Shown here in pieces: positions 26,607 to 51,265 of a DNA stretch of 64,000 nt (position 1 is the stretch's first letter; each line of letters opens with the position of its first letter). Origin of the DNA: Agrococcus sp. ProA11. GTDB lineage: Bacteria > Actinomycetota > Actinomycetes > Actinomycetales > Microbacteriaceae. The stretch is taken from assembly GCF_039880525.1 (NCBI RefSeq), contig NZ_CP156989.1, forward strand, positions 124,001 through 188,000, written 5' to 3'. Position numbers and translations under genes: made by a program. The notes under the pieces were generated by a model. The model ran no database searches, was not told where the DNA came from, and was given only the letters and a program-made list of their open reading frames with translations.

Positions 26607-26736
26607 GGTACCAAACGGTCGCCTCGCGCCTGACCGCGCGACACATCCGTACCGGTCGCGGCACGCCTTGCCTCCCGGCTCCGCGCTCCGGTACCGAAGT
26701 GTCGCGTGGCGTGGGCGGAGGCGACACTTCGGTACC
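26607..26736. repeat. GGTACC 47-bp palindromic elements, cluster A (2 copies)
   Basis: Copy A1 (26607-26653) is degenerate; copy A2 (26690-26736) is perfect: GGTACCGAAGTGTCGC, 15 bases, then GCGACACTTCGGTACC. Both have exactly the same 16-15-16 layout as nine other copies at 48948-51265. They lie between the convergent rpf-like and paaZ genes. Confidence 0.92.
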
Positions 26737-26786
26737 GATGCCGCGCGACCGGCCGACCCCGCAGCGGGAGCCGGCCGGCGCGCAGG

Positions 26787-28853
26787 TCAGGCCTGCGGCT
26801 GCGTCTTCGCGACGTAGGTGAGCAGGTCGTACTGCGCGACGACCTCGTCGTCCTGGTTGGTCAGCACCGCATCCCAGCGCACCTCGCCGTACTCGTCGGT
26901 CTCGCGCGGCGTGATCTGCTTCGCGGTCAGGGTGACGCGCAGGGTGTCGCCGGGGGAGACCGGCGTCATGAAGCGCAGGTTGTCGAGACCGGTGTTCGCG
27001 AGCACGGGGCCGGGCGCGGGCTCGACGAAGAGCCCGGCAGCGAACGACAGCAGCAGGTAGCCGTGCGCGACGCGACCCGGGAAGAACGGGTTCGCCTCGG
27101 CGGCCTCCTGGTTCATGTGGGCATAGAACGTGTCGCCCGTGAACTCGGCGAAGTGCTCGATGTCGTCGAGCGTGATCTCGCGCCGCTCCGACACGACCCG
27201 GTCGCCGATCTCGAGCTCCGCCAGCGACTTCCGGAACGGGTGCGGGGGCTCGGTCGAGGCCGGGGCACCCGAGTGCCACACGCCCGTGACCGCGGTCAGC
27301 ATGGCGGGGGAGCCCTGGATGGCCGTGCGCTGCATGTGGTGGAGCACCGAGCGGATGCCGCCCAGCTCCTCACCGCCGCCGGCGCGACCCGGGCCGCCGT
27401 GCACGAGCATCGGCAGCGGCGAGCCGTGCCCCGTGGAGGCGCGCGCGTCGTCGCGATCGAGCAGCAGGATGCGGCCGTTGTGCGCCGCGATGCGCCGCGT
27501 GAGCTCGCCGACGAACGCGCCGTCGTAGCTTGCGACCGAGGTGACGAGCGAGCCGCCGCCGCGGGCGACGAGCTCTGCTGCCTGCTCGGGGCTGCCGTAC
27601 TCGACCAGCGATGACACCGGGCCGAAGGCCTCGACCGAGTGCAGTGCCTCGGCCTCCGCGTCGGTGAAGGCGAGCAGCGTCGGCGCGACGAAGGCGCCCT
27701 CCTCTGCGGCTCCCATCGAGCCGTCGGCCAGCCGCACCGAGGCGGCGTCGCCGCCGACCACGACGCGGCCGCCGCCCTCGCGCAGCTTCATGACCTGCTG
27801 CAGCACCTCGTCGCGCTGCTCGACGGAGGCGAGCGGGCCCATGGTGACGCCCTCGCCGCGCGGGTCGCCGAGCACCACCTTCGCGGCGATGCGCGCCTCG
27901 ACCGCGGCAGCCACCGCATCGGTCATGCCCGTCGGCACGATCGCCCGACGGATGGCCGTGCACTTCTGCCCGGCCTTCGACGTCATCTCGGTGACGAGGC
28001 CGCGCACGAAGGCGTCGAACTCGGGCGTGCCCTCGACGGCATCCGGGCCGAGCACGGAGGCGTTGATCGAGTCGGTCTCTGCCGTGAAGCGCACGCCGCG
28101 GGCCTGCACCGCGTCGTGGCGGCGCAGTGCGTCGGCGGTCGAGGCGCTGCCCGTGAAGCCGACGGTGTCGCCGAGCTGCAGGTGGTCGAGCAGATCGCGG
28201 GCGGAGCCGTTGACGATCTGGACGGCGCCGGCGGGGAGGAGGCCCGACTCGGCCAGGATGCGCACCATGTGCTCGGCGACGAAGCCCGTCGGGGTGGCGG
28301 GCTTGATGACGGTCGGCATGCCGGCGAGGAAGGCCGGCGCGAGCTTCTCGAGCGAGCCCCAGACGGGGAAGTTGAAGGCGTTGATCTGCACCGCGACGCC
28401 CGGCAGGGTCGTGCAGATGTGGCGGGCGAGGAACGAGCCGTCCTTCGACAGCGGCTCGACCGCGCCGTCGAGGTAGACGGTCGACTGCGGCATCTCGCGG
28501 CGGCCCTTCGACGAGTACGTGAAGAGCACGCCGATGCCGCCGTCGATGTCGACCCACGAATCCGCCTTCGTGGCACCCGACTGATAGCTGAGGTCGTAGA
28601 GCTCCTGCTTGCGCTCGGTCAGCGCGATCGCGAACTGCTTCAGCAGGATGGCGCGCTGGTGGAAGGTGAGGGGCGCGAGGCTGTGCTGGCCGATCGTGCG
28701 CGCGTGGTCGAGGGCGGCGACGGTGTCGAGGCCGTTCGCGCTCACGCGCACGACCTCCTCGCCGGTGCTCGCGTCGCGCACGACGGTCGCGTCGCTCGCG
28801 TCGGTGGGCTCCCACCATGCGTCCTGGATGTAGCTGGGCAGCAGTCGAGTCAT
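26787..28853 (-). CDS. paaZ: Bifunctional ring-opening protein PaaZ (aldehyde dehydrogenase + oxepin-CoA hydrolase)
   Basis: A 688-aa two-domain enzyme. The C-terminal MaoC-like hydratase (from about residue 540; TGDTFYAHMNQEAAEANPFF, PGRVAHGYLLLSFAAG) opens oxepin-CoA to an aldehyde. The N-terminal aldehyde dehydrogenase then oxidises it (VAVQINAFNFPVWGSLEKLA, GFTGSAST, catalytic Cys in SKAGQKCTAIRR). ATG 28853 has an AAGGA site; the longer upstream frame runs through the palindromic repeats and is rejected. It is the last gene of the paaJ-F-H-Z unit and is set apart from paaH by a pair of 56-bp repeats. Confidence 0.94.
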   Translation of the reverse strand: MTRLLPSYIQDAWWEPTDASDATVVRDASTGEEVVRVSANGLDTVAALDHARTIGQHSLAPLTFHQRAILLKQFAIALTERKQELYDLSYQSGATKADSWVDIDGGIGVLFTYSSKGRREMPQSTVYLDGAVEPLSKDGSFLARHICTTLPGVAVQINAFNFPVWGSLEKLAPAFLAGMPTVIKPATPTGFVAEHMVRILAESGLLPAGAVQIVNGSARDLLDHLQLGDTVGFTGSASTADALRRHDAVQARGVRFTAETDSINASVLGPDAVEGTPEFDAFVRGLVTEMTSKAGQKCTAIRRAIVPTGMTDAVAAAVEARIAAKVVLGDPRGEGVTMGPLASVEQRDEVLQQVMKLREGGGRVVVGGDAASVRLADGSMGAAEEGAFVAPTLLAFTDAEAEALHSVEAFGPVSSLVEYGSPEQAAELVARGGGSLVTSVASYDGAFVGELTRRIAAHNGRILLLDRDDARASTGHGSPLPMLVHGGPGRAGGGEELGGIRSVLHHMQRTAIQGSPAMLTAVTGVWHSGAPASTEPPHPFRKSLAELEIGDRVVSERREITLDDIEHFAEFTGDTFYAHMNQEAAEANPFFPGRVAHGYLLLSFAAGLFVEPAPGPVLANTGLDNLRFMTPVSPGDTLRVTLTAKQITPRETDEYGEVRWDAVLTNQDDEVVAQYDLLTYVAKTQPQA

Positions 28854-28878
28854 CGTCGATCCTTCGTCTCGTCGTCGT

Positions 28879-29006
28879 CGAGCGTCCCCGAATCGAGCGG
28901 TTCGGTGCGGAACCGCTCCGTCTCGGGAAGCTCGGCGGTGGGTGCGGGGGCGAGCGTCCCCGAATCGAGCGGTTCGGGGTGGAACCGCGCCGTTTCGGGA
29001 AGCTCG
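28879..29006. repeat. Paired 56-bp palindromic repeats (72-bp period) between paaH and paaZ
   Basis: Copies at 28879-28934 and 28951-29006 each run from CGAGCGTCCCCGAA to CGGGAAGCTCG. They are 56 bases long with 72-base period, the reverse orientation of the pair between paaA and paaB. The first copy also contains a perfect inner stem, GAGCGGTTC and GAACCGCTC around six bases. Confidence 0.9.
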
Positions 29007-29019
29007 ACGGTTGGGGGCG

Positions 29020-29901
29020 TCACGCGTCGTGCCAGTCGTAGAAGCCGCGGCCGGACTTCTTGCCGAGGCGGCCGTCGGCGACCATGTCGCGCAGCAGCTG
29101 CGGCGGCGCGAAGCGGTCGCCCAGGTCGCGGTGCAGCTGCTCGGCGATGCCGAGCCGCACATCCAGGCCGACGATGTCGGTGGTGCGCAGCGGCCCCACC
29201 GGGTGCTTGTAGCCGAGCTCCATCGCCGCGTCGATGTCGCCGGGGCTCGCGACGCCCTCCTCGACCATGCGGATGGCCTCCAGTCCGATCGCGACACCGA
29301 GCCTCGAGCTCGCGAAGCCGGGCGCGTCATGCACGGTCACGGGCGTCTTGCCGATCGCCTCGACCCATGCGCGGGCGTCGTTCGCGAGCCGCGGCTCGGT
29401 CGCGTCGCCCAGCACGATCTCGACCAGGGCGGATGCGGGGACCGGGTTGAAGAAGTGCAGGCCCAGGAACCGCTCGGGGCGGTCGAGGCGAGTCGCCAAG
29501 CGATCGATGGAGATGGAGGAGGTGTTGCTCGCGAGCGCCGCATGGGAGCCGAGGACGGCCTCGACGCGGGCCAGCGCATCCGCCTTCAGATCCTCGTCCT
29601 CGGGCACCGCCTCGACCACGAGGTCGCTCTCGTCGAACGCGCTGACGTCGAGCGCGACCGCGATGCGGCCCTCGAGCTCGACGAGCGACTCCGACCAGCC
29701 GCGCTCGACGCTCTTGCGCAGGCTCGCGGTGACGCGCTCGCGAGCGGCGTCGGCCGCGGCCGCGTCCCGCTCGACGACCACCACCTGGCTGCCCGCGAGC
29801 ACGAAGGCGTGCGCGATCCCGGCGCCCATGCGTCCGCCGCCGAGCACACCGACGCGCTCGGGGGCGCCGGCACCGAGCACAGCATCCGTCTGGTCGTTCA
29901 T
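29020..29901 (-). CDS. paaH: 3-hydroxyadipyl-CoA dehydrogenase (PaaH-like)
   Basis: A 293-aa NAD-dependent 3-hydroxyacyl-CoA dehydrogenase that oxidises 3-hydroxyadipyl-CoA in the beta-oxidation part of the pathway. The Rossmann motif GVLGGGRMGAGIAHAF, the SNTSSISIDRLA loop and the catalytic-site segment GLHFFNPVPASALVEIV (His-Asn) are present. The C-terminal domain has DAPGFASSRLGVAIGLEA and ends KKSGRGFYDW. Its ATG overlaps the paaF stop by ATGA. The length fits the single-module PaaH type. Confidence 0.9.
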   Translation of the reverse strand: MNDQTDAVLGAGAPERVGVLGGGRMGAGIAHAFVLAGSQVVVVERDAAAADAARERVTASLRKSVERGWSESLVELEGRIAVALDVSAFDESDLVVEAVPEDEDLKADALARVEAVLGSHAALASNTSSISIDRLATRLDRPERFLGLHFFNPVPASALVEIVLGDATEPRLANDARAWVEAIGKTPVTVHDAPGFASSRLGVAIGLEAIRMVEEGVASPGDIDAAMELGYKHPVGPLRTTDIVGLDVRLGIAEQLHRDLGDRFAPPQLLRDMVADGRLGKKSGRGFYDWHDA

Positions 29902-30635
29902 CGCTTGCGCCTCTCGAGGAAGTCGGTCATGCGTCGCATCTTCTCGTCGCTCTCGAACAGCACCGACTGCTCCTGCAGCTCCATCTCGGGGTGGGCGCTC
30001 GCCGGCGCGAGGAGCGCGCGCTTGGTCGCCTGCGTCGCCGCCGGGTCGAGCTTCGCGATGCGCTCGGCGAGCTCGGTCGCGTGCGCGAGGGCGGCGTCGG
30101 GCTCCAGCACTGCGCTCACCAGGCCCGCAGCGAGCGCCTCGTCGGCGTTCAGGATCCGGCCGGTGAGCAGCATCTCGGCGGCACGCGCGTCGCCGACGAT
30201 CTGCGGCAGCCGCCAGGTGGCGCCGGCGGCGGCGATGATGCCGAGGCCGGTCTCCGGGTTGCCGATCTTGAGGCTCGGAGTGCCGATGCGGATGTCGGCG
30301 GCATAGGCCAGCTCGGCACCGCCGCCCAGGGCGTAGCCGTCCAGCACCGCGATCACCGGCATGGGGAGGGCACGGATGCGCTGGAAGCAGCGCGTGTTGA
30401 TGCCCTCGAGCGCGTCGGCGGCGCGACGCTCGCGGAGCTGGGCGATGTCGGCGCCCGCGGCGAACGAGCCGCCGGCCCCGGTGAGCACGAGCGTGCGGTG
30501 CTCGACCTCGAGCCGGGCGCAGAGCGCGTGCAGCGCGTCGACGAGCTCCTGGTCGATCGCGTTGCGCTTCTCGGGCCGGTCGAGGGTGGCGAGCACGTGC
30601 GTGGCGTGCTCCTCGATGCGCAGCGTCTCGCTCAC
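29898..30635 (-). CDS. paaF: 2,3-dehydroadipyl-CoA hydratase (PaaF-like)
   Basis: A 245-aa enoyl-CoA hydratase of the crotonase family. Unlike the PaaG-like protein at 17941-18714, it keeps both catalytic glutamates (GGGAELAYAADI and IGNPETGLGIIAAAG). The substrate should be 2,3-dehydroadipyl-CoA. GTG 30635 is chosen because it overlaps the paaJ stop by GTGA. The 3' end overlaps paaH by ATGA, so J, F and H are coupled. Confidence 0.88.
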   Translation of the reverse strand: MSETLRIEEHATHVLATLDRPEKRNAIDQELVDALHALCARLEVEHRTLVLTGAGGSFAAGADIAQLRERRAADALEGINTRCFQRIRALPMPVIAVLDGYALGGGAELAYAADIRIGTPSLKIGNPETGLGIIAAAGATWRLPQIVGDARAAEMLLTGRILNADEALAAGLVSAVLEPDAALAHATELAERIAKLDPAATQATKRALLAPASAHPEMELQEQSVLFESDEKMRRMTDFLERRKR

Positions 30636-31816
30636 ACGCGCTCCAGGATGATCGCCGTGCCCTGGCCGACGCCGATGCACATGGTCGCGAGGCCGCGGTC
30701 GGCGCCCTCCCGCTCCATGCGGCCGAGCAGCGTCACGACCAGCCGCGAGCCGGAGGAGCCGAGCGGATGCCCGAGGGCGATCGCGCCGCCGTCGGCGTTC
30801 ACGAGGCTGTCGTCGAGGCCGAGCCGACGGATGGTGCCGATCGACTGCGTCGCGAACGCCTCGTTCAGCTCGATCGCGCCGAGATCCTCCACCTGCAGCC
30901 CAGTCCGGGCCAGCAGCTTCTCGGTGGCCGGCACGGGGCCGAGCCCCATGATCTCGGGCGCGAGGCCGACGCTGGTGCCGCCGACCACGCGCGCCCTGGC
31001 GGTGAGCCCGAACCGCTCGACGGCGGCGTCGCTCGCGACCACGATCGCCGATGCGCCGTCGTTGAGGCTGGATGCGTTGCCAGCGGTGACCACGGATCCT
31101 CCGGTGACGACGGGGCGCAGGCGCGCCAGCGCCTCCATCGTCGTCTCACGGCGCGGCCCCTCGTCGACCGTCACGTCGCCCGCCTTCGTCGGCACGGCGA
31201 CGATCTCGTCGTCGAACCGGCCGGCGTCGATCGCGGCGATGGCGCGCTCCTGCGAGCGCAGCGCGAAGGCGTCCGCCTCCTCGCGGGTGATGCCGTCGAC
31301 GCGCGCGACCTCCTCGGCGGTCTCCGGCATCGAGAAGGTGGCCTTGTCGCGCGCAGTCATGCGCGGGTTGACGAAGCGCCAGCCGATCGAGGTGTCGAAC
31401 GCCTCGCCGGGCTTCGCCCACGGGCGCTCGGGCTTGGCCTGCACCCAGGGGGCGCGGGTCATCGACTCGACGCCGCCGGCGACCACGATGTCGGCATCGC
31501 CAGCGCGGATCATCTGCGAAGCCATGATCATCGCCGACATGCCGGAGGAGCAGAGCCGGTTGACCGTGATGCCGGGCACCTCGTCGGGCAGGCCCGCGAG
31601 CAGGGTCGCCATGCGGGCGACGTTGCGGTTGTCCTCGCCGGCCTGATTGGCGGCGCCGAAGATGACCTCGTCGATCGTGGCCGGTTCGATGCCGGCGCGG
31701 CGCACGGCCTCGCCGATCACGAGCGCTGCGAGGTCGTCGGGGCGGACGCCGGCGAGCGCGCCGCCGTAGCGGCCGACCGGCGTGCGTGCGCCGCCGACGA
31801 GAAGGGCCTCGGGCAT
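30632..31816 (-). CDS. paaJ: 3-oxoadipyl-CoA/3-oxo-5,6-dehydrosuberyl-CoA thiolase (PaaJ)
   Basis: A 394-aa thiolase that releases acetyl-CoA and, in the last step, succinyl-CoA. The catalytic Cys is in VNRLCSSGMSAMIMA, the His motif in IALGHPLGSSGSRLV, and the second Cys in LATMCIGVGQGTAI. NPRMTARDKATFSMPETAEE is also typical. ATG 31816 has an AGGAG site. It leads the second leftward paa operon, behind the PaaR-type palindrome at 31877-31898. Confidence 0.92.
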   Translation of the reverse strand: MPEALLVGGARTPVGRYGGALAGVRPDDLAALVIGEAVRRAGIEPATIDEVIFGAANQAGEDNRNVARMATLLAGLPDEVPGITVNRLCSSGMSAMIMASQMIRAGDADIVVAGGVESMTRAPWVQAKPERPWAKPGEAFDTSIGWRFVNPRMTARDKATFSMPETAEEVARVDGITREEADAFALRSQERAIAAIDAGRFDDEIVAVPTKAGDVTVDEGPRRETTMEALARLRPVVTGGSVVTAGNASSLNDGASAIVVASDAAVERFGLTARARVVGGTSVGLAPEIMGLGPVPATEKLLARTGLQVEDLGAIELNEAFATQSIGTIRRLGLDDSLVNADGGAIALGHPLGSSGSRLVVTLLGRMEREGADRGLATMCIGVGQGTAIILERV

Positions 31817-31876
31817 GGGACTCCTGACTCCGTCGTCACTGACGATCACCGGGCCGGCTCGAGCCGCACCCGAATT

Positions 31877-31898
31877 AGTGACCGATCGTTCAGGAATA
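31877..31898 (-). promoter_or_regulatory. Probable PaaR operator upstream of paaJ
   Basis: AGTGACCGATCGTTCAGG, centred on the CGATCG at 31883-31888, matches the site between paaA and paaI. The shared left flank, CGAATTAGTGACCG, is identical in both. It lies 61 bases before the paaJ start. Confidence 0.72.
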
Positions 31899-32028
31899 CA
31901 GTATGCCCCCGCGGAGGCGCGTGCAAGCGAGCGGCCCGTCGGCCGACCGAGCTGGTGGTTCGGGAAGCGGATTTTCGTGCTGCGGGACCAGGGAGCCGGT
32001 TGACGGACGGGGGGGCGGCGGCTCAGGC

Positions 32029-32078
32029 GGGTCGGGCGCGCCAGGGACGGCGGGTCGGGCGGGTCAGGCGGGTCAGGC
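32029..32078. repeat. Short 9-bp direct repeats (GGGTCRGGC)
   Basis: One copy at 32029-32037 and three tandem copies at 32052-32078. The stop codon of the small membrane peptide gene falls inside the last copy. It is a simple low-complexity tract. Confidence 0.6.
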
Positions 32079-32222
32079 GTGGCGGTCGCGGCCGGCGAGT
32101 GCGCCGAGCGCCCACGCGCCGGCGATGACGGCGCTGCCGACCACGACGATGGTCGCCGTCGCGAGCGCCAGCGCTGCGAGCGCAACGTTCGCGATCGTCC
32201 CGAGCAGGTCGAACATGTCCAT
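32073..32222 (-). CDS. Small hydrophobic membrane peptide (49 aa)
   Basis: The frame reads MDMFDLLGTIANVALAALAL and then a second hydrophobic stretch (TIVVVGSAVIAGAWALGALA), ending in a short basic tail, GRDRHA. ATG 32222 has AAAGGGG at suitable spacing; a second ATG at 32216 is two codons in. One long or two short membrane helices are likely. I do not recognise the family. It stands alone between paaJ and the DinB-like gene, facing away from the latter. Confidence 0.6.
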   Translation of the reverse strand: MDMFDLLGTIANVALAALALATATIVVVGSAVIAGAWALGALAGRDRHA

Positions 32223-32352
32223 GACAGGCCCCTTTCGTGTGCGGCGTCGCCGTGTGTTCGACGCTAGGAAAGGGGCGTGGCCGGGCGCATCCGCCTGCCG
32301 GTCAGCGACGGTCATCCTTCCGGATGATCCGCGCGGGTGGGATGCTCGGAGC

Positions 32353-32877
32353 ATGCCGATCGAACCCGACACCAAGGACTGGACCTGGGTGCTGCACGAG
32401 CGCTGCCCCGAGTGCGGGTTCGACCCGCTGGAGGTGGAGCGCGACGACCTGGGCCGCCGGATCCGGCACGCGGCGGCGGCGATGCATGAACGGCTGCATG
32501 GCGAGGCCGTGACGAAGCGGCCCGACGACGCGACCTGGTCGCCGCTCGAGTACGGCGCGCACGTGCGCGATGTGTGCGGCGTGATGCTGACGCGGCTGCG
32601 CCAGATGCTCGAGCAGGACGACCCCGAGTTCGCCAACTGGGATCAGGATCGGGCGGCGCTCGACGGCCGCTACCCGAGCCTCGACCCCGAGCACGTGGCG
32701 GCCCAGCTCGACCTGGCGGCGGCATCGCTCGCGAACGCGGCGGATGCCGTGCCCGACGACGCGTGGGCCCGCAGCGGCCGGCGCTCGAACGGCTCGATGT
32801 TCACGGTCGAGACGCTGCTCGTCTACGCGCTGCACGACCTCGAGCATCACGTCGTCGACGTGCGCTGGGCCGACTGA
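32353..32877 (+). CDS. DinB-family protein
   Basis: A 174-aa four-helix-bundle protein. The N-terminal WVLHERCPECGFDPLEV motif, then WSPLEYGAHVRDVCGVMLTR and the C-terminal YALHDLEHHVVDV, supply the histidines expected of the DinB metal site. Actinobacterial members often act as thiol-dependent transferases, but the reaction here is unknown. ATG 32353 follows CGGAG. The stop codon is immediately followed by the GTG of the HAD gene, so the two form a small operon. Confidence 0.8.
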   Translation: MPIEPDTKDWTWVLHERCPECGFDPLEVERDDLGRRIRHAAAAMHERLHGEAVTKRPDDATWSPLEYGAHVRDVCGVMLTRLRQMLEQDDPEFANWDQDRAALDGRYPSLDPEHVAAQLDLAAASLANAADAVPDDAWARSGRRSNGSMFTVETLLVYALHDLEHHVVDVRWAD

Positions 32878-33696
32878 GTGGCTGCCGACTGGCGCGAGCT
32901 GCCTGGGGATCTCGACATCCGTCTCGTCGTCGCCGACATGGACGGCACGCTGCTCGACGCCCACGGGCGCGTGCCCGACTCGTTCTGGCCGCTGCTCGAG
33001 CGCATGCACGATGCGGGCATCGCCTTCGTGCCCGCGAGCGGTCGCCAGCTCGCGACGCTCGAGCACCTCTTCGAGCGCGCCGGTCGGCTCTCGAGCATCG
33101 CCGAGAACGGCGCCATCGTCACGCACGGCGGCGAGGTGATCGGCACCACCACGGTGACAGCGGATGCCGTGCGGCAGGTCGTGCATCGCGTGCGCGAGAC
33201 CGACGGGCAGCTGGGCCTCGTCGTGAGCCGCCGCGAGATCGCCTCCATCGAGTCGCGGGAGGCCACATTCGTCGAGCAGGCGCACAAGTACCACGTGGCG
33301 CTCGAGTCGGTGGCGGATCTCCTCGAGCACACCGACGACGTGCTGAAGCTCGCGGTGCACGCGAACGGCACATCCTCCGCCGACGCCGCGCGCTGGCTCG
33401 AGCCGGTGCACGACGGGCATCGCATCACGATCGGGTCGCCGCGCTGGGTGGACGTGACGCGCGACAGCGTCGACAAGCGGCTGGGTGTGGAGGCGCTGCA
33501 GCGCGAGCTCGGCGTGACGGCCGGGCAGACGGTCGTCTTCGGCGACTACCTCAACGACCTCGGCATGCTCGCCGACGCCGAGTGGACCTTCGCGATGGAG
33601 AACGCGCATCCCGAGGTGCACTCGACCGCCCGCTACCGCGCGCCCGGCAACGACCAGCACGGCGTCGTGCAGGTGCTGGAGCGACTGCTGGCTTGA
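32878..33696 (+). CDS. HAD-superfamily hydrolase, Cof type
   Basis: A 272-aa sugar-phosphatase-like HAD protein. Motif I is VVADMDGTLLD with the nucleophile Asp, motif II is FVPASGRQLATL, and motif IV is VVFGDYLNDLGMLADA. A C2-type cap domain between them is expected from the spacing. Cof-like enzymes dephosphorylate sugar phosphates, FMN or PLP. The GTG start follows the DinB stop codon without a gap. Confidence 0.88.
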   Translation: MAADWRELPGDLDIRLVVADMDGTLLDAHGRVPDSFWPLLERMHDAGIAFVPASGRQLATLEHLFERAGRLSSIAENGAIVTHGGEVIGTTTVTADAVRQVVHRVRETDGQLGLVVSRREIASIESREATFVEQAHKYHVALESVADLLEHTDDVLKLAVHANGTSSADAARWLEPVHDGHRITIGSPRWVDVTRDSVDKRLGVEALQRELGVTAGQTVVFGDYLNDLGMLADAEWTFAMENAHPEVHSTARYRAPGNDQHGVVQVLERLLA

Positions 33697-33731
33697 CGCT
33701 CCGCGGGCCGCGTCCCGGTCGGCGCGACGGC

Positions 33732-36347: not shown

Positions 36348-36360
36348 GAGGGCGGGCGCG

Positions 36361-38808: not shown

Positions 38809-38809
38809 G

Positions 38810-42584: not shown

Positions 42585-42603
42585 CGCAGAGCGGCGGGGC
42601 GCG

Positions 42604-43755: not shown

Positions 43756-44533
43756 GCGACTGCCCGTCCCGAGGCGGCGTCCACCGCAGGATCATGCGGA
43801 AGGGCACGGAGGTGTCGACGTGCCATCCGTCGTCGGCACCGATGTCGCGCAGCGTGCTGCGCAGCTCGGGTGCGCGGTAGCTGCGCCGGATGGAGAGCGA
43901 GCCGTCGAAGTGCACGAACGAGCCGCGCGCCAGCGGCACGGTCGCCGCTCGGTACACGGCGTAGGCCAGGTTGCCGCGGGCGATGTCGTTGTGGACGACG
44001 AGCCGCCTGGCGAGCCGCTCGCTGTCGGCGAGCAGGGCGGCGAGGCCCGCCTGGTCGAGGTGGTGCAGGAGGTGGTTCGACGTGACGATGTCGAACCGCT
44101 CGTGGGCGGCGACGAGGTCGGCGCTCAGCATCCGACGGAACCGCACGTTCGCCACCGGGTCGAGCCCGCTCGCGAACTCGTGCGCGCGCTCGTCGGGGTC
44201 GATGGCGGTGACGTCGAGCAGCAGGCCGTCGCGTGCGGCCCATGCGGCCAGCGCGCGCGGCACGTCGCCGCCGCCGGAGCCGATGTCGAGCAGCGTGGTC
44301 GCGCGGGTCGGCGAGAACGCCGGGCGGAGCTGGCGGAGGTAGATGCGGCGCCAGCCGGAGACCAGCCGGTTGATCGGCCGGAAGAGCGCGTAGGTGGTGC
44401 GCAGGGCGACGGGATCGCAGTCGGGGTCGTCCATGAGCTCACGCTCGCGGCGCTCGCGGGTGGTGAGATCGGGCCAGCGCGGCGGGCGGGGGATCGCGTT
44501 CCCATCGCCTGCAGACGCGGGAGGGGGCGTCAC
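43748..44533 (-). CDS. Class I SAM-dependent methyltransferase
   Basis: A 261-aa methyltransferase. Motif I is TLLDIGSGGGDVPRALAAWA, followed by DVTAIDPDERAHEFA and FDIVTSNHLLHHLDQAG. It overlaps the PKS stop by ATGA and the monooxygenase start by eight bases, so the three genes are made together. It probably C- or O-methylates the polyketide phenol. It is related to UbiE-like enzymes rather than to small catechol O-methyltransferases. Confidence 0.87.
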   Translation of the reverse strand: MTPPPASAGDGNAIPRPPRWPDLTTRERRERELMDDPDCDPVALRTTYALFRPINRLVSGWRRIYLRQLRPAFSPTRATTLLDIGSGGGDVPRALAAWAARDGLLLDVTAIDPDERAHEFASGLDPVANVRFRRMLSADLVAAHERFDIVTSNHLLHHLDQAGLAALLADSERLARRLVVHNDIARGNLAYAVYRAATVPLARGSFVHFDGSLSIRRSYRAPELRSTLRDIGADDGWHVDTSVPFRMILRWTPPRDGQSRA

Positions 44534-45714
44534 GCCGCCGGCTCGCCGATGCCGGCGACGCGATGGGTGAGCAGGGCGGTCTCGACCGTGAGGCCGGGGC
44601 CGAATGCCATTGCGCAGACCAGGTCACCTTCCTCGTGCTGACGGTCGCCGTGCAGGATGCGGCGCAGCACGAACAGCACCGTCGCGCTCGAGATGTTGCC
44701 GACCGTGCGCAGCGTCTCGCGCGACGGCTCGAGCTGCGCGTCGGAGAGGCCGAGCGTGGCCTGCACCTTGTCGAGGATGCTCCGGCCACCGGGGTGGATC
44801 GCCCACCGGGGGATCGCGGCGTGCGGCTGCTCCGCCACATCCGGGACCGTCTCGAGCAGCGGCGTCAGCGCGCTGACGATGTGCTCCTCGATGATGGAGG
44901 GGACGTAGCGGCTGAGCACCATCTCGAAGCCGTGGTCGCCGATTGTCCAGGCCATGTCCGCCTCGCCGATCGGGGTGATGACCGTCTCGAACGCGTCGAG
45001 GTCGAGCACCGCAGCGCCGGCCGGTGCGGGGCGCGCGGTGACGACCGCGGCTGCCGCGCCGTCGGCGAAGACCGAGGATGCGACGATCGTGTCGGGGTCG
45101 TCGGAGGAGGCCAGGTGCAGCGAGCACAGCTCGACGGAGACGACGAGCACCACGGCATCGGGGTCCGCGAGGCAGAACGCGTGGGCCGCGCGCAGGGCCG
45201 GGAAGGCGGCGTAGCAGCCCATGAAGCCCAGGTGGTAGCGCTGCGTGGAGGGCGCGAGGCCCAGGTCCTGCACGATCGCGAAGTCGGGGCCGGGCGCGAA
45301 GAATCCCGTGCACGACACCGTGATCACGTGGGTGACGTCGGCGGCGTCGAGATCCGGCACCGCGTCGAGCGCGGCGCGTGCCGCGCCGAGGAACAGCGCG
45401 GGTGAGGTGTCGGTGTAGACGTCGTTGCGCTTGCCCGTGGCGGGGGAGAGGATCGCGCCCGACGCCGCGTCGTAGAACGTCGCGCGCTCGGCATCCGCGT
45501 CCGCCGCGTCGACCACCCGGCGGCCGTGCTCGGTGCCGAGCTCGTCGATGACCGTGTACCTGGTGTCGATCCCGGAGGCGTCGAACGCGGCATGCACGAG
45601 GCGGCCGCCCAGGCGGCTGAGGTCGGGCTGGCCCGCGAACAGGTCGCGGATCTCGTCCTGCCGCAGCTCCGTGGCGGGCACCGCGGTCTCGATGGAGCGG
45701 ATGGAGATGGCCAT
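44530..45714 (-). CDS. Type III polyketide synthase (chalcone/stilbene synthase family)
   Basis: A 394-aa ketosynthase-like enzyme that extends an acyl-CoA starter with malonyl-CoA. The catalytic triad is present: Cys in YHLGFMGCYAAFPALRAA, His in WAIHPGGRSILDKVQATLG, and Asn in LRTVGNISSATVLFVL. ITVSCTGFFAPGPDF is also typical. ATG 45714 starts MAISIRSIETAVPATEL. The operon with a methyltransferase and an FAD hydroxylase resembles srsABC, so an alkylresorcinol/alkylquinone phenolic lipid is the best guess. Starter specificity cannot be read. Confidence 0.9.
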   Translation of the reverse strand: MAISIRSIETAVPATELRQDEIRDLFAGQPDLSRLGGRLVHAAFDASGIDTRYTVIDELGTEHGRRVVDAADADAERATFYDAASGAILSPATGKRNDVYTDTSPALFLGAARAALDAVPDLDAADVTHVITVSCTGFFAPGPDFAIVQDLGLAPSTQRYHLGFMGCYAAFPALRAAHAFCLADPDAVVLVVSVELCSLHLASSDDPDTIVASSVFADGAAAAVVTARPAPAGAAVLDLDAFETVITPIGEADMAWTIGDHGFEMVLSRYVPSIIEEHIVSALTPLLETVPDVAEQPHAAIPRWAIHPGGRSILDKVQATLGLSDAQLEPSRETLRTVGNISSATVLFVLRRILHGDRQHEEGDLVCAMAFGPGLTVETALLTHRVAGIGEPAA

Positions 45715-45822
45715 ATGCGACTGTAACGAGCGAACCCTTTGCGTTCCCCGGTGTGGCCTGGGTCGGCGACGGTCGCGAACCTGCAGGACGCTGATCCCAG
45801 CCGCACGGACTAGCGTGTGCGC

Positions 45823-46668
45823 ATGGCAAGCAACGGCGGACACGGCTCCGCGGCATCCAAGGCGAAGTCGTCGGCTGATGACGCGACCGACAAGGCGCAG
45901 TCCGCGGCGGCGAGCGCCGAGAACCACCCCGCGGCCGATTGGGTGACGGCCGCCGGCCAGATCGCCAACGGCTTGGTGCACTTCATCATCGGTGCGATCG
46001 CGCTCGGCATCGCCTTCGGCGACGGTGGCTCGGCCGACCAGCAGGGCGCGATGCGCGCAATCGAGCAGACGCCGCTCGGGGGCGTGGCGATCTGGGCGGT
46101 CGCGATCGCGATGCTCGCGCTCGCGCTGCACGCGTTCGTGTCCGCGGTCGCCGATTCGCGGCGCGATCGGACGGATGCGCTGAAGAGCGCGGGCCGCGGC
46201 ATCGCCTACGCGGCAGTCGGCGTGACCGCCCTCACGGCAGCGCTCGGCAGTTCAGGCAGCGGTGATTCCGATGCGAAGTCGCTCTCGGCGGCGCTCATGG
46301 AGCAGCCGTTCGGGCTGTTCCTGGTCGGTGCGGTGGGCGTCGCCACCGCCGCGGTCGGCGTGTACTTCGTGATCAAGGGCGTGCAGAAGAAGTTCCTCGA
46401 GGACGTCGCGCCGCCCGCCCGCTTCCGCCACGCCGTCGAGCTGCTCGGCATGGTCGGCTATCCGGCGAAGGGGGTCGCGATCTTCATCGTCGGCGCCCTG
46501 TTCGTGATCGCCGCGTTCACGCACGACGCCGACCAGGCGGCCGGGCTCGACGGCGCGCTGCAGTCGCTCACGACGGTGCCGGGAGGTGTGTTCGCGCTGA
46601 TCGCGGTCGCGCTCGGCCTGATGATCTACGGCGTGTACTGCTTGGCGCGCGGTCTCTGGAATCGCTGA
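45823..46668 (+). CDS. DUF1206 membrane protein
   Basis: A 281-aa membrane protein made of three related two-helix modules (DWVTAAGQIANGLVHFIIGA, GRGIAYAAVGVTALTAALG, LLGMVGYPAKGVAIFIVGAL), the DUF1206 architecture. Function is unknown. The first 40 residues are Ala/Ser-rich and hydrophilic. ATG 45823 is preferred to the GTG at 45817. It is divergent from the type III PKS gene. Confidence 0.85.
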   Translation: MASNGGHGSAASKAKSSADDATDKAQSAAASAENHPAADWVTAAGQIANGLVHFIIGAIALGIAFGDGGSADQQGAMRAIEQTPLGGVAIWAVAIAMLALALHAFVSAVADSRRDRTDALKSAGRGIAYAAVGVTALTAALGSSGSGDSDAKSLSAALMEQPFGLFLVGAVGVATAAVGVYFVIKGVQKKFLEDVAPPARFRHAVELLGMVGYPAKGVAIFIVGALFVIAAFTHDADQAAGLDGALQSLTTVPGGVFALIAVALGLMIYGVYCLARGLWNR

Positions 46669-46692
46669 CGCCCACCGCAAGAGCGGTGGCGC

Positions 46693-47163
46693 TCAGGCGC
46701 GGCGACCGCGTCCGGGGTGCGGCAGGATCGGGTTGCGCAGCCGTGCAAGCTGGAGGGCGAGCTGCGCGGGAGTCAGCTTGGAGCGCTGCTGGCCCGGCAG
46801 GTCGCGCAGCGTCGGCTCGGGGTTCTGCTCGACGCTCTGCTCGGGGTTCTGCTCGGGGACGTCTGCCACGAGCTGGTCATGCGTCGCGGCGTCCTCAGGC
46901 GTCTCCGGCACATGCGGGTGGTGCTCCACATGGGCGGAGGCGCGCAGCCGCTCGTCGAGCGCCGTGAGGTCGGCGCCGGTGGACTGCAGATCGCGCCCCA
47001 TGGTGCGCAGCACGCGCACGACCGTGTCGTAGTCCTCGTCGGAGACCGATGCCTCGACGCGGCGAGCCACCTCGTCGGCGCCGATCGACCTGCGGGAGCG
47101 CTCGACGGCGGCAGCGGCGAGCTCGACCCAGTCCTCGAGTCGGCGATTGCGATTGCGATCCAT
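46693..47163 (-). CDS. Hypothetical protein, actinobacterial, acidic/Gln-rich middle
   Basis: A 156-aa soluble protein I do not recognise. The N-terminal half is helical (RNRRLEDWVELAAAAVERSR, VVRVLRTMGRDLQ). The middle is low-complexity with repeated EQNPEQSVEQNPEP, encoded by short direct repeats near 46815-46860. The end is basic (LALQLARLRNPILPHPGRGR). ATG 47163 is chosen because AGGAGG lies six bases upstream. It is convergent with the DUF1206 gene. Confidence 0.7.
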   Translation of the reverse strand: MDRNRNRRLEDWVELAAAAVERSRRSIGADEVARRVEASVSDEDYDTVVRVLRTMGRDLQSTGADLTALDERLRASAHVEHHPHVPETPEDAATHDQLVADVPEQNPEQSVEQNPEPTLRDLPGQQRSKLTPAQLALQLARLRNPILPHPGRGRRA

Positions 47164-47291
47164 CATGCACCTCCTATGCAGACCATCGTCCTCTGTTCCG
47201 CTATGAACTGCGCTAGCCGATCGGCCAGCCGTGGGATTCGCCTGCCGGGCGAGTCCGCCGACGGCAGGTGACGGGCGATACGCTCGCACTC

Positions 47292-47900
47292 GTGCTGCTC
47301 AGCGATCGCGACATCCGTGCCCGGCTCGACTCCGGCTCCCTCGGCCTCGACCCGCTCGAGCTGTCGATGCTCCAGCCCTCCAGCGTCGACGTGCGCCTTG
47401 ACCGCGGGTTCCGGCTGTTCGACAACCACAAGTACCCGTTCATCGACCCGGCGGAGGATCAGCCCGAGCTGACGCGGCTGGTCGAGGTCGCGAACGATGA
47501 GGCGTTCATCCTGCACCCCGGGGAGTTCGTGCTCGGCGCGACGTACGAGCGGATCTCGCTGCCCGACGACGTCGCCGCGCGGCTGGAGGGCAAGTCGTCG
47601 CTGGGGCGCCTCGGCCTCCTCACGCACTCGACGGCCGGCTTCATCGATCCGGGCTTCTCGGGTCACGTCACGCTCGAGCTCTCGAACGTCTCGACGCTGC
47701 CGATCAAGCTGTGGCCGGGCATGAAGATCGGGCAGGTCTGCTACTTCCAGCTGTCGAGCCCCTCAGAGCACCCGTATGGCCAGGGTCCGAATCTCAACCG
47801 CTACCAGGGCCAGCGCGGGCCGACGGCGTCGCGCTCGTTCCAGAACTTCCACCGCACGGCCATTCCTGCCGCCGACATCCCCGCCGCCGAGAGCGAGTAA
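47292..47900 (+). CDS. dcd: dCTP deaminase (probably bifunctional, dUMP-forming)
   Basis: A 202-aa trimeric pyrimidine-nucleotide enzyme. The start [55 protein letters not shown], the catalytic Glu in [13 protein letters not shown] and the nucleotide-closing tail [16 protein letters not shown] are all there. The M. tuberculosis homologue makes dUMP directly from dCTP, and this sequence is close in all these motifs. GTG 47292 is chosen by alignment with MLLSDRD starts; GTG 47268 would add eight residues. Confidence 0.93.
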
Positions 47901-48799
47901 TGGCGGGCCCGCTGCGCGTCGAGCCCGATGTGTCGAGCGCGCGCTGGGTGCAGGAGGCGCTGCACGAGGACGGCACGGTCGCCACGCTCGTGCCGCCGAT
48001 CTTCGATGCCTACGCACGCATCCTGCACCCCGCCACGCTCGAGACGCCGACGGGCGAGGTGAACGAGTGGAGCGTGCCGGAGTACGCCGGGCGTGCGATC
48101 TCGTGGGCCGACGCCGCCGAGCTCATCGACGACCGGTCGGGAGGACAGCGGTGGACCGCCTGGCAGCAGCGCTTCGGCGACGACCAGCACGCGCTGCGCG
48201 ACGGCCGACGTGTGCTGGCGCCGCACCTCGGCGACATCCCGATCGGGCTGCTCGCTGAGCTTGCCGCAGTGCTGCGCGACGAGCACGGCGACGTCGAGGT
48301 GCTCGCGGGCGTCTGGGAGGGGAGCGGCCTCGACCCGACCGGCTCCAGCCTCTTCTTCATGGTGAGCGACGACGAGCAGATGACGGCGGCCGAGCGGCAG
48401 GAGCTGGAGCGCACGGCGCAGCGGCGGCATCGCGAGGAGCTCATCAGCGCGGTCGACCCGGAGGTCGCCGCCGCGATGCGACGACAGCAGGTGCTGGGGC
48501 TGCCGCGACCGCAGCAGGCTCGCGGACACGTGCTGCTCCGCGCGCAGCTCGAGGTGTTCTGCAACCCTGCGTGGGAGCGCGAAGCGGGCCTGGGCTGGCG
48601 CGCGGACTGGCCGTATCAGGGCCGCACGCCCAACGCGCTCTGGCCCGTCGAGCCCGCCGGAGCCCCCGCCTGGTTCGTCGCCACCGACATGGATCTCGAC
48701 ATCACGCACGTCGGCGGCAGCGGCCACCTGATCGGGCGCCTATTGGGTCATCCCGGCATCGAGGCCGAGCGCGTGCGCCCCACCGATCCGATCGTCTGA
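47900..48799 (+). CDS. Hypothetical protein, coupled to dcd
   Basis: A 299-aa soluble acidic protein of unknown function. Its ATG overlaps the dcd stop (TAATG), so it is translationally coupled. Recognisable features are limited: ILHPATLETPTGEVNEW, ADAAELIDDRSGGQRWTAW and YQGRTPNALWPVEPAGAPAW near the C-terminus, without signal peptide or membrane segments. The pattern looks like a conserved actinobacterial protein. Coupling to dcd need not mean a nucleotide role. Confidence 0.7.
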   Translation: MAGPLRVEPDVSSARWVQEALHEDGTVATLVPPIFDAYARILHPATLETPTGEVNEWSVPEYAGRAISWADAAELIDDRSGGQRWTAWQQRFGDDQHALRDGRRVLAPHLGDIPIGLLAELAAVLRDEHGDVEVLAGVWEGSGLDPTGSSLFFMVSDDEQMTAAERQELERTAQRRHREELISAVDPEVAAAMRRQQVLGLPRPQQARGHVLLRAQLEVFCNPAWEREAGLGWRADWPYQGRTPNALWPVEPAGAPAWFVATDMDLDITHVGGSGHLIGRLLGHPGIEAERVRPTDPIV

Positions 48800-48823
48800 C
48801 GCGCGCCGCGCCCCTGCGCCCAC

Positions 48824-48919
48824 CCCTCGCCCGGCCCCGCTCCTTCCCTTGCCCGGCCCCGCCTCCTCCCTCGCCCGGCCTCGCCCCATCCCTCGCCCGG
48901 CCCCGCCCCATCCCTCGCC
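48824..48919. repeat. 22-bp GC-rich tandem repeat, 4.4 copies
   Basis: Four consecutive 22-base units (first half CCCTCGCCCGGCCCCGC, second half variable) at 48824-48911 plus a partial unit. They sit just after the stop of the gene at 47900 and before GGTACC element cluster B. The tract is pyrimidine-rich on the plus strand. Confidence 0.85.
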
Positions 48920-48947
48920 GTCGTCACCCGGCGACTGCGCCGCTTCC

Positions 48948-49067
48948 GGTACCGAAGTGCCGCCTCTTGCGTTCCGGCGCGACGATTCCGTACCGCAACC
49001 TCGCCCGGTACCGCAGATCCGGTACCGAACGGTCGCGATCGGTCGCCGTAGCCGACAGTTCGGTACC
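48948..49067. repeat. GGTACC 47-bp palindromic elements, cluster B (2 copies)
   Basis: B1 at 48948-48994 and B2 at 49021-49067, each 16-base arm, 15-base centre, 16-base arm. B2 has arms GGTACCGAACGGTCGC and CCGACAGTTCGGTACC. A lone half-arm starts at 49007. They lie between the convergent genes at 47900-48799 and 49098-49721. Confidence 0.9.
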
Positions 49068-49097
49068 GCAAGTGCCGCGGGCGGCGCGGGGAGCGCG

Positions 49098-49721
49098 TCA
49101 GCGGATGTCGACGCTCGAGACGGTGGCCGACGCCGCATCCCAGCGGCGCAGCGCGACGCCGTGCGCTTCGATCTCCGGCCCGAGCAGCCGGAGCGCGGCC
49201 GGCAGGTCGACGAGGCGGATGCGCCGGGCGAGCGTCACGTGCGGCGTCCAGCGTCCCGGCGCGAAGAACTGGCCGTCGTTCCCGTTCCCGCTTGCGTGGC
49301 CGTGCCCGAGCCCGTGCTCGTGCGCGCTCCAATCCCCACGCGCAAGCCCGGGCCCGTCGTCAGGGCCGCCGCTGCCATCCCCATTTCCAGCCGCGGTGAG
49401 CACCGCGCGCTGGAGACCGAGCAGACCCGACGATGGCACGACCGAGCGCGCGAGCACCCGTCGATCGCCCTCGCCGAACAGCAGCGGAGCGCCGAGCACG
49501 ATCGGCAGCGGCAGGCTGACCCCTCCGACGCGGAGCGGATGCGGCACCGGCAGCGACCGCGCGAGCAACGTCACGTGCGGTCGATTGCTCGCCGCTTCGT
49601 GACCGGCCATGCTCGACATCCCGGCGGCTGCGAGCGCCTCCCACTCGGCGCGAATCCGCGCCTCGGCGTCGTCGTCGAGCAGCAGCTCGATGCTGGTGAT
49701 GCCGCTCGTCTCGGGAGCCAT
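49098..49721 (-). CDS. 2'-5' RNA ligase/cyclic phosphodiesterase-like protein
   Basis: A 207-aa 2H phosphoesterase-like protein. The two His-x-Thr motifs are NRPHVTLLARSL near residue 48 and WTPHVTLARRIR near 160, the hallmark of this superfamily. Between the motifs is a Gly/His/Asp-rich low-complexity insert (HEHGLGHGHASGNGND). ATG 49721 is preferred to ATG 49739; the open frame further upstream runs through repeat array C and is not real coding. The substrate (2',3'-cyclic phosphate RNA or nucleotides) is unknown. Confidence 0.8.
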   Translation of the reverse strand: MAPETSGITSIELLLDDDAEARIRAEWEALAAAGMSSMAGHEAASNRPHVTLLARSLPVPHPLRVGGVSLPLPIVLGAPLLFGEGDRRVLARSVVPSSGLLGLQRAVLTAAGNGDGSGGPDDGPGLARGDWSAHEHGLGHGHASGNGNDGQFFAPGRWTPHVTLARRIRLVDLPAALRLLGPEIEAHGVALRRWDAASATVSSVDIR

Positions 49722-49764
49722 GGCACCATGCTCGCGCATCGAGCCGGCGCCTTCGCCCTGCTCC

Positions 49765-49934
49765 GGTACGGAATTGCCGGCTGTGCCTGCCGGAGCCGAC
49801 ACTTCGGTACCGGACGGCCGCTCGCGCCTGCCGGAGCCGACACTTCGGTACCGGACGGCCGCCTGGGCCTGCCGGATCCGACACTCCGGTACCGAATGGC
49901 CGCCTGTGCGTGCCGGAGCCGACACGTTGGTACC
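49765..49934. repeat. GGTACC element array C: four units with exact 41-bp period
   Basis: Units start at 49765, 49806, 49847 and 49888; each is 47 bases and shares its end GGTACC with the next, giving a 41-base period. Right arms (CCGACACTTCGGTACC and close variants) are more conserved than left arms. The 15-base centres are related (most end GCCGGAG) but not identical. The array separates the DUF559 gene from the RNA-ligase-like gene and ends 44 bases from the latter's start. Confidence 0.95.
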
Positions 49935-49959
49935 GCTGAAGACGGCGTTCGCGCGCCGC

Positions 49960-50898
49960 TCACGCGGTCACGCCTCGCCGCGCGAGCGCCGAGCGCACTC
50001 GCCGCAGCAGACCGCGCGCGCCGTCGTACAGGTCAGCCTTCGTGACGCGGATGACGATCCAGCCGAGCGACTCGAGCAGCTCCTGCCGCCGGATGTCCCG
50101 CGCCCACTGCGCCGGGTCGAGCAGATGGTGCTCGCCCTCGTACTCGATCGCGATCATCCACTCGGGGTAGGCGAGGTCGATCACCGCTTGCAGGATGCCC
50201 TCGAGCCACACCTCGAACTGCACCACGGCCTCCGGCAGCCCTGCGGCAACGATCGCAAGCCGCGAGCGCGACTCCTGGGGCGAATCCGCTCCGGCGCGCA
50301 CGCGATCGAGCGCGGCACGCAGCGCGGCTGCGCCACGCAGCCCACGGCAGTGCTCCGCGAACGCATGCAGCGCGGGGATGCTGGAGTACGGCCGCATCGG
50401 CAAGCGCAGGCCCCGGTAGATCTCCGACGGCGTGACGAGCGCATCCATGAGCACCACGAGGTCGTCGCTCGTCGTCTCGCGGGCGAGCAGCATCGCCGTG
50501 CCCAGCGGATCGAGGATCGGCAGGCCGTCGAGCTCGCACACCGCTAGCCGCTCGGTGTCGAACTCGCGCGTGACCACCCCGCGGGCGCGCGTTCTCGTCG
50601 TCCCGGCGGGGATGCCGATGACCAGCGGCTCGGCGGGCCGCCATCGGGTGGTCTCCGGCAGCCCCCACAGCCGCGCAGCGGTCACGCCTGCGAACACGTG
50701 GCCGGGACGCATCCGCTGTCGGTAGGCCTCGGCGAGCTCGTGGACGCCGGCAGCGGGCGACGCAGCTCGCACGCCGTGGAACGGCGCGGTGAGGTCGGTG
50801 CCGCGGAGGCGTCGGGGCGTCACGCCCGCCTCGCGAGCGCGCACGACCGAGAAGGGGCCGCTCGCGAGCGGTTCGGGCAGCGGAGCGTGGCGGACCAT
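49960..50898 (-). CDS. DUF559 / AbiEi-like protein with restriction-endonuclease-like C-terminus
   Basis: A 312-aa protein of a family frequent in actinobacteria. The N-terminal part (PFSVVRAREAGVTPRRLRGT, then FAGVTAARLWGLP) resembles the winged-helix domain of AbiEi-type antitoxins. The C-terminal part resembles DUF559, related to very-short-patch-repair nucleases, with acidic residues in the order needed for a PD-(D/E)xK-like site (VIDLAYPEWMIAIEYEGEHH, then LESLGWIVIRVTKADL). ATG 50898 is chosen because the upstream frame runs through repeats. Catalytic activity is not established. It is flanked on both sides by GGTACC element arrays. Confidence 0.82.
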   Translation of the reverse strand: MVRHAPLPEPLASGPFSVVRAREAGVTPRRLRGTDLTAPFHGVRAASPAAGVHELAEAYRQRMRPGHVFAGVTAARLWGLPETTRWRPAEPLVIGIPAGTTRTRARGVVTREFDTERLAVCELDGLPILDPLGTAMLLARETTSDDLVVLMDALVTPSEIYRGLRLPMRPYSSIPALHAFAEHCRGLRGAAALRAALDRVRAGADSPQESRSRLAIVAAGLPEAVVQFEVWLEGILQAVIDLAYPEWMIAIEYEGEHHLLDPAQWARDIRRQELLESLGWIVIRVTKADLYDGARGLLRRVRSALARRGVTA

Positions 50899-51031
50899 GT
50901 CGCGCAGTGTGCGGCGCTGGCAGCGGCGCGCGTCGCGCGATCGCCGCGCCCTGTGGAGAGAGGCGCCCCGCCGAGCCTCGCGTCGCCCCTCGGAGCCTTG
51001 CCTCGCCGCGCGCGCCGGCTCGCGCGATTGC

Positions 51032-51265
51032 GGTACCAAAGTGTCGCGCGCGGGATGCGGACGCGACGATTCGGTACCGGTGCGGCGCCAGGCCCGCGGA
51101 GTCGCCCCCGGCGCGCGGCGGGGCGGTACCAAAGTGTCGCGCGCGGGATGCGGACGCGACGATTCGGTACCGGTACGGCGCCAGGCCCGCGGAGTCGCCC
51201 GCGGCCCGCGGCGGTTGCGGTACCGAAGTGTCGCGTCAGGGACGGGGAGGCGACGCTTCGGTACC
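51032..51265. repeat. GGTACC 47-bp palindromic elements, cluster D (3 copies)
   Basis: D1 51032-51078, D2 51125-51171 and D3 51219-51265, spaced 93 and 94 bases apart. D1 and D2 have identical arms and an identical 15-base centre. The roughly 46-base spacers after them (GCGGCGCCAGGCCCGCGGAG and following) are also near-identical. A larger segment was therefore duplicated. The MFS gene's stop codon lies inside the centre of D3. Confidence 0.95.

Follow-up and report, generated by a model that had tools for sequence, protein, structure and literature searches.

The 64,000-nucleotide stretch of the Agrococcus sp. ProA11 chromosome analysed here (positions 124,001 to 188,000 of contig NZ_CP156989.1; hereafter the window) carries eleven copies of a 47-bp palindrome bounded by GGTACC boxes. 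Our analysis suggests, with a probability of a little under 0.6, that these elements are sites co-evolving with a trans-acting, cooperatively binding protein. Each element would be a double-stranded DNA site made of two inverted copies of one bipartite half-site, with a lineage-specific outer box (GGTACC in this genome, together with 3-4 bases beside it) and an inner box A-A/T-NN-GTCG, the 14-16-bp centre holding the outer boxes about four helical turns apart. A protein that is at least a dimer would bind both half-sites, binding to neighbouring dyads would be cooperative and along the same helical face, and the specificity of the protein would change together with its sites; we infer both the protein and this joint change from the sequences.

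The original prediction, made from the letters of the window alone, had described eleven such copies with a layout of 16, 15 and 16 bases for arm, centre and arm, and a direct re-scan of the window found 11 of 11 at the same starts and in the same layout. The copies have 0-6 mismatches to the consensus of that prediction over the 32 arm bases, the next-best positions in the window having 12; at no more than 3 mismatches four of the window copies match, and 100 shuffles gave 0 matches. On the window's own chromosome (G000; 2,665,899 bases in one contig, with dnaA at base 304) we counted 43 copies at 19 loci, scoring the arms at 28 positions with at most 6 mismatches, a count that covers the stretches fetched around matches and not the whole chromosome base by base. 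A search of the whole chromosome for CGGTACC-N20..50-GGTACCG returned 26 places, 20 of them with exactly N35, which corresponds to the 47-bp element, as compared to 1 place for the reversed-pattern control. The half-site GGTACCGAANNGTCGC, with at most one mismatch, occurs at 55 places (reversed control 0), all of which fall within counted dyads. The genome-wide dispersal that had been anticipated is thereby confirmed, in tens of copies and not in hundreds. The supposedly invariable lengths turn out to be tight but not absolute, as the centre has 15 bases in 41 of the 43 G000 copies and 16 in the other two, and 14, 15 or 16 bases in other species. The possibility of a local duplication artefact limited to the window, which the prediction itself had raised, can practically be dismissed: although some clusters are tandem arrays, the family occupies 19 loci spread over the chromosome, is found at orthologous places in other species and occurs in at least 8 congeners.

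Both arms of the element are versions of one half-site, in short GGTACC-RAA-NN-GTCGC, consisting of a lineage-specific outer part, GGTACC, R-A-A/T, two free bases and G-Y-C-G-C. In G000 the dyad extends outward, with a C before the boxes in 41 of 43 copies and a G after them in 42 of 43. The 3-4 further flanking bases beyond the boxes are lineage-specific and continue the inverted repeat outside GGTACC as TTGC in G001, ACC in G003, AGA-N-C in G005 and GGGT in G014, G016 and G022. The GGTACC boxes inside one dyad lie 41 bp apart (40-42 bp with the other centres). A profile of 23 G000 copies contains no one-sided tag and describes the element as a symmetric 47-bp dyad.

In order to assess the relation between the two arms, we compared 94 elements from nine species, retained at no more than 6 mismatches and a centre of 14-16 from 106 raw places that had passed a loose screen of the fetched stretches (12 were dropped). 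Shuffled within species, the arms pair no better than chance at 21 of 22 positions, position -3 being the only one to exceed the shuffles at p<0.05 (p=0.033); the two NN positions pair as in the shuffles (41 against 36.7 and 30 against 31.6). A separate count on 21 G000 copies (alignment A1, a subset of the 94) gave 86.8% paired bases compared to 87.4% after shuffling. Compensatory outer stems between species were apparent at first and disappeared on shuffling within species. G:T or A:C pairs all lie on one strand in 13 of the 55 elements having at least two such pairs, the chance expectation being 17.9. The two arms behave like separate renderings of a single recognition sequence. Since they vary independently and show no strand preference, a selected RNA hairpin is unlikely, which bears out the doubt voiced in the original prediction together with its claim that the arms do not co-vary. 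Independent half-sites with a common consensus are what sites of one sequence-specific protein would have, and independent arm variation is expected of a protein with two equivalent DNA-binding parts. Compensatory base changes, as in a structured RNA or terminator, were not found.

It is accordingly very improbable that the elements work as RNA hairpins, be it as transcription terminators or as protectors of mRNA 3' ends. Many of them do stand close behind stop codons, and strong hairpins are predicted on either strand; however, neither covariation nor a strand preference is seen, a consensus terminator scan of window positions 26500-26800, the sole spacer scanned, called no T-tract hairpin and passed over the UUCG hairpin at ~26539-26566, and Rfam gave no match near gathering score at the 8 loci tried. 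Moreover, at one of the loci compared between species (locus A), a separate GC-rich hairpin is present both in G014, beside its dyads, and in G016, which retains it without dyads (by eye).

The arrangement of neighbouring dyads, analysed for dyads no more than 260 bp apart with at most 7 mismatches, is consistent with the DNA-binding function that had been proposed, as are arm independence and the lack of strand bias. Neighbours are spaced by 41, 63-64, 73-75, 82-84, 92-94 or 105 bp, with a single exception of 100 bp. Within 0.2 turn of whole turns fall 39 of 40 spacings at 10.45 bp per turn, a period chosen after the data had been seen and set to the customary B-DNA value; random draws matched the observed phase concentration in 0 of 2000 cases. 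Many spacings come from tandem or orthologous arrays; counting one per cluster leaves 27 of 28, and collapsing orthologous loci by hand 23 of 24. The linkers of the 83-bp class are near chance identity (0.405 compared to 0.383, standard deviation 0.012, including one same-locus pair at 0.89) and thus nearly unrelated in sequence, so that length is kept without sequence. An uncounted dyad at L193 1544-1590 (G000:C1:262043), with TGTCGC-type outer boxes, the usual inner boxes, a 15-base centre and 8 mismatches, is separated by 73 bp, or about 7 turns, from the GGTACC dyad at 262116.

To follow the family through the genus we searched 24 genomes (E<=0.01) with R1, a sequence-only model built from 21 G000 copies. 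R1 matched 15 of the 24, and nine of these, G000 among them, have at least 8 matches with both strands counted (among the matches listed); the family is present in at least eight congeners besides G000. Applied to a sample of 347 genomes of the order under stricter filters (E<=1e-4), R1 found only G000, G018 and, weakly, G135 of another genus (6e-5), where the place reads GGTCCCGAATCGTCGC-N15-CCGACCATATAGGCCC behind a tRNA-like 3' end (by eye). A second type is built from GCACATGTGC boxes: with N30-55 allowed, such pairs occur among the 24 genomes only in G007 (5) and G017 (5), with 0 for the control, and 10 of 10 have exactly N41. A third type, GATGTGCAC...GTGCACATC, is represented by 5 copies in G008, 4 in G004 and 1 in G021 (62-64 bp), by 4 copies of 55 bp in G014, G016 and G022 and by a single place of 76 bp in G019; judged by its design alone, it is perhaps kin to the GGTACC dyads. 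A viral origin was considered and rejected: in viral contigs the GGTACC pattern had 0 matches, and the single match of the GCACATGTGC type is a CRISPR-like repeat array (by eye).

Comparison of the fetched loci shows that places are shared between species while the spelling of the elements changes. The locus behind an Rpf-like gene is common to G000, G003 and G005, the helicase-ROK locus to G000 and G022, the 1305k locus to G000 and G003, and the 1135k locus to G000 and G009 (one side compared). An intragenic locus (2415k) is common to G000, G003 and G005 and, by weaker similarity, to G016 and G022. One spacer is common to G001, G014 and G022, and another to G001 and G009. One or both sides of a DUF559 gene carry elements in G000, G003, G005, G009, G014, G016 and G022, and the spacer between this gene and an MFS-like gene holds a GATCTGCGG variant in G001 and, instead of GGTACC, one GCACATGTGC-box dyad each in G007 and G017. 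Treating G014, G016 and G022 as one clade, the identity of the outer 4 bp is 0.63 for different loci of the same clade, 0.32 for the same locus in different clades and 0.37 for different loci in different clades; the corresponding values for the loops are 0.49, 0.51 and 0.44. The bases outside GGTACC follow the species and not the locus; it is the recognition bases that change with the lineage, and the loops are hardly homogenised. This combination is hard to obtain by whole-element copying and easy to obtain by a joint change of protein and sites.

Two further dyads deserve mention. At L317 (G010:C6:359000-359700), a dyad whose outer boxes read TGGGTCRC and whose inner boxes read ATCGTCG / ATCGGTCG occurs in a genome without strong GGTACC copies, at a locus that has GGTACC dyads in G022 (by eye). 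A conserved AT-richer dyad (ATGCATGTCA..TGACATGSAT) is found in the same gene neighbourhood in six species (L247, L258, L259, L260, L262 and L263) and is probably a promoter or operator unrelated to the family.

The eleven window copies form four clusters, A to D, which lie among the following genes; the dyads are listed without strand.

26607..26653: dyad element 1, cluster A, within the spacer on the 3' side of the Rpf-like transglycosylase/LysM gene; its arms deviate at 5 positions from the consensus of the original prediction.
26690..26736: dyad element 2, also in cluster A; its arms match the consensus perfectly, and its distance to element 1 is 83 bp, or about 8 helical turns.
48948..48994: dyad element 3, cluster B, in a convergent spacer.
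49021..49067: dyad element 4, also in cluster B, at a distance of 73 bp (about 7 turns) from element 3.
49765..49811: dyad element 5, cluster C, an array of four copies (49765-49934) with GGTACC end boxes in common and a repeat period of 41 bp.
49806..49852: dyad element 6, in cluster C, matched by the model in part.
49847..49893: dyad element 7, in cluster C, likewise matched in part.
49888..49934: dyad element 8, cluster C, on the 3' side of the DUF559 gene, where G005, G014, G016 and G022 also have elements.
51032..51078: dyad element 9, cluster D, in the MFS-DUF559 spacer.
51125..51171: dyad element 10, also in cluster D, at a distance of 93 bp (about 9 turns) from element 9.
51219..51265: dyad element 11, cluster D; contains the TGA stop (51236-51238, minus strand) of the MFS-like ORF.
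25750..26523, plus strand: transglycosylase and LysM gene (PF06737, PF01476), which we take to be Rpf-like; its 3' spacer contains cluster A, and the orthologous spacers of G003 and G005 have dyads.
49098..49721, minus strand: LigT-like gene (PF13563 below cut-off) between clusters B and C; the open reading frame (ORF) extends from 49925, the ATG at 49721 being picked by eye.
49960..50898, minus strand: DUF559/MTES_1575 nuclease-like gene, situated between clusters C and D, its matches to both families being below cut-off; the ORF extends from 51132, the ATG at 50898 being picked by eye.
51236..54550, minus strand: ORF whose C-terminal part holds an MFS/ATG22-like transporter domain (PF11700, PF07690); the coordinates are those of the ORF.

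Two smaller features adjoin these clusters: a UUCG hairpin, rich in GC and carrying a short run of T (~26539-26566, by eye), between the stop codon of the Rpf-like gene and the first dyad, and a 22-bp tandem repeat (CCCTCGCCCGGCCCCGCCCCAT-like) at 48824-48911, just ahead of cluster B.

The statement that all copies lie between genes holds for most of them. Element 11 is not wholly intergenic, as the stop codon of the leftward MFS-like ORF lies in its centre; the original stop of the ORF seems to have been lost to this element. In G005 the frame matching the MFS-like ORF stops where element 11 starts in G000 (by eye). The other departure is the 2415k locus, at which two G000 copies (L205 1513-1653, G000:C1:2415512-2415652) stand directly behind etfA, inside a gene, in an alanine/proline-rich stretch preceding a cytochrome b561-like domain (match just below the family cut-off). 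They are the only G000 copies with a 16-base centre, each being 48 bp long, so that the frame is kept. The rest of this stretch repeats RRGLPR-x-x-GG-E/D-PWP motifs.

We classed 39 loci, 19 from G000 and 20 from six relatives (three of the GCACATGTGC type), some of which are orthologous to each other. Using a simple ORF call by GC frame, 19 are convergent, 14 tandem and 3 divergent spacers, and 3 are intragenic, the last (L205, L334 and L337) representing the one orthologous 2415k locus; the G000 classes were set by hand and a few are uncertain, since the elements at 264k, 533k and 565k lie within or just before the first codons of a called ORF. The ratio of 19 convergent to 3 divergent spacers (p=0.0009) contrasts with a circular map, which has equal numbers of both gaps, and the loci mostly adjoin gene 3' ends. 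There is a hint of a bias towards dnaA: 12 of the 19 G000 loci lie no more than 340 kb from it, the mean distance giving p=0.005, but p=0.033 when neighbours are merged (9 of 16). When 36 near-element proteins were compared to Pfam, the neighbour genes proved to encode mostly metabolic, transport, cell-wall or nucleic-acid enzymes (6 had no match). The neighbours were also considered as a source of a mobilising or binding protein, and no transposase or integrase match was found among the 36. The sole sequence-specific regulator among them is of GntR type (L327 1144-1854, in G001), its gene ending 103 bp before a dyad pair. In bacterial interspersed mosaic elements (BIMEs) of the BIME-2 kind, which are bound and cut by gyrase, the model is one of supercoil relief between convergent genes. 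Binding of the dyads by DNA gyrase or another general topology protein would fit the excess of convergent spacers, and helically phased arrays could wrap round such a protein. Nevertheless, we regard this explanation as improbable: gyrase is conserved, yet the outer box changes completely inside one genus, and the 39 loci include 14 tandem spacers and 3 intragenic places.

The main rival to a co-evolving protein is a lineage-specific selfish element, akin to repetitive extragenic palindromic sequences (REPs) or miniature inverted-repeat transposable elements (MITEs), whose arms would be sites of a transposase or other mobilising enzyme and which would be re-amplified in each lineage and land in hot spots behind genes. 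We consider it rather unlikely, though clearly to be reckoned with. Like REPs and BIMEs, the elements are mostly extragenic, clustered and near gene 3' ends, and their sequence types are lineage-specific and vary in copy number. They also differ between close species (all by eye): at locus A a pair is present in G014 and G022 and absent from G016, G010 and G006; at locus B, of five close relatives, G014 alone has a pair; at locus C G022 has a GGTACC pair and G016 a decayed copy, with nothing in G014, G010 and G018; and at locus D pairs are found in G014 and G022, GAGTGGCGCC repeats in G016 and G006 and other sequence in G010. Tandem GAGTGGCGCC repeats occupy L320 (G016:C1:901100-901750) and L323 (G006:C3:746700-747350), where G014, G022 and G001 carry GGTACC dyads. 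Tandem arrays, the copy that replaces the MFS-like gene's stop codon (by eye) and the copies within a low-complexity part of a gene would equally suit mobility, as would the scarcity in divergent spacers, which REPs share, and the loops of different G000 loci, which are slightly more alike than shuffled (0.48 compared to 0.41). Against this, a gene of the type of REP-associated tyrosine transposases (RAYTs; PF01797) was found in 0 of the 24 genus genomes, the control giving a signal in 5 of 14, which led us to reject a RAYT-mobilised REP. No longer transposon with these arms as far-apart ends was found in G000, where all 55 half-sites lie in short dyads; this result concerns that genome, leaving aside one half-site each in G003 and G005, and a diverged parent, or a parent in another species, may exist. 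No target-site duplication was seen at four filled and empty loci (by eye), whose spacers are too diverged to fix the boundaries. The loops are barely more alike within than between clades (0.49 compared to 0.44), which is unexpected under whole-element copying, and the whole-turn spacing comes with unrelated linkers. Of the original suggestion of a REP-like or miniature mobile element, the dispersal and the places at 3' ends stand; no RAYT, no long transposon (in G000) and no clean duplication (by eye) were found, and many loci are shared between species.

Several points weigh against co-evolving protein sites as well. All support consists of sequence statistics, from which we infer the binding protein. 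Nine of the 24 genomes have no match to R1, the GGTACC model, and six have only 1-2 weak ones (among the matches listed), and locus sharing was compared among the loci fetched. Copies come and go among close species, G016 being without elements at three of the four loci where G014, G022 or both have them and having a decayed one at the fourth (by eye); the sites are not individually essential. The helical phase is broken by the 100-bp spacing, and the best free period is 10.25 for all spacings, 9.85 with one per cluster and 9.55 for G000 with one per cluster, not 10.5. In 10 comparisons of orthologous copies, changes affect 3 of 160 core positions and 27 of 155 loop positions, a contrast that is inflated as the copies were found by their cores, one G016 copy was used twice and the decayed copy was excluded. 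Finally, one shared locus lies inside a gene, as is described for REPs too (PMC3733652).

Among known systems, we assign the family to none; it resembles REPs and BIMEs in place and dispersal; the titles and abstracts returned by a literature search hold no description of this dyad family. With REPs, BIMEs and REPINs it has in common short dispersed palindromes, mostly extragenic, often in pairs or arrays and lineage-specific. REPs carry a single-end GTAG/CGTC tag on a 20-40-bp stem-loop. In contrast, the present family shows no RAYT-type gene in the 24 genus genomes and consists of a 47-bp (61-bp) bipartite dyad without such a tag, in tens of copies, with whole-turn spacing and shared loci of changed sequence. 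In PMC3733652, CGTC-tagged REPs are described as palindromic families that likewise lack a dedicated transposase and have some intragenic copies; their 8-9-bp stems, 4-5-bp loops and one-sided tag differ from the symmetric 47-bp dyad. MITEs share the inverted repeats and the mostly non-coding location; here, however, no parent element with these ends was found in G000, no target-site duplication was seen and only 14-16 bp separate the arms. The parS sites of ParB, Noc boxes, SlmA sites and the matS sites of MatP are palindromic sites of one protein dispersed over the chromosome, a likeness to which the 12 of 19 loci within 340 kb of dnaA may be added. Those sites measure about 12-16 bp, whereas the dyad spans at least 47 bp and changes its sequence within a genus.

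Returning to the co-evolving protein, a more specific version is possible, though we hold it only tentatively and with more doubt than confidence: a chromosome-wide cis-system of one actinobacterial genus, in which inherited dyads at fixed places would be read by one fast-evolving protein. Its preference for the outer box would have changed repeatedly (GGTACC, GCACATGTGC and perhaps also GATGTGCAC and TGGGTCRC); all sites of a genome would have followed together, with the inner GTCG box and the helical geometry preserved. A role in chromosome structure or segregation, or in the insulation of neighbouring, often convergent, genes is a guess. Were the elements mobile instead, they would represent a REP-like class without a known mobilising enzyme, and their whole-turn geometry would be left unexplained. 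If they are the sites of one chromosomal protein, they would provide a natural series in which a whole genome-wide set of sites has been respelled without a change of place, it could be tested directly how a DNA-binding protein and tens of its sites evolve together, and a chromosome-organising or gene-insulating system would be added to those of the Actinomycetota.

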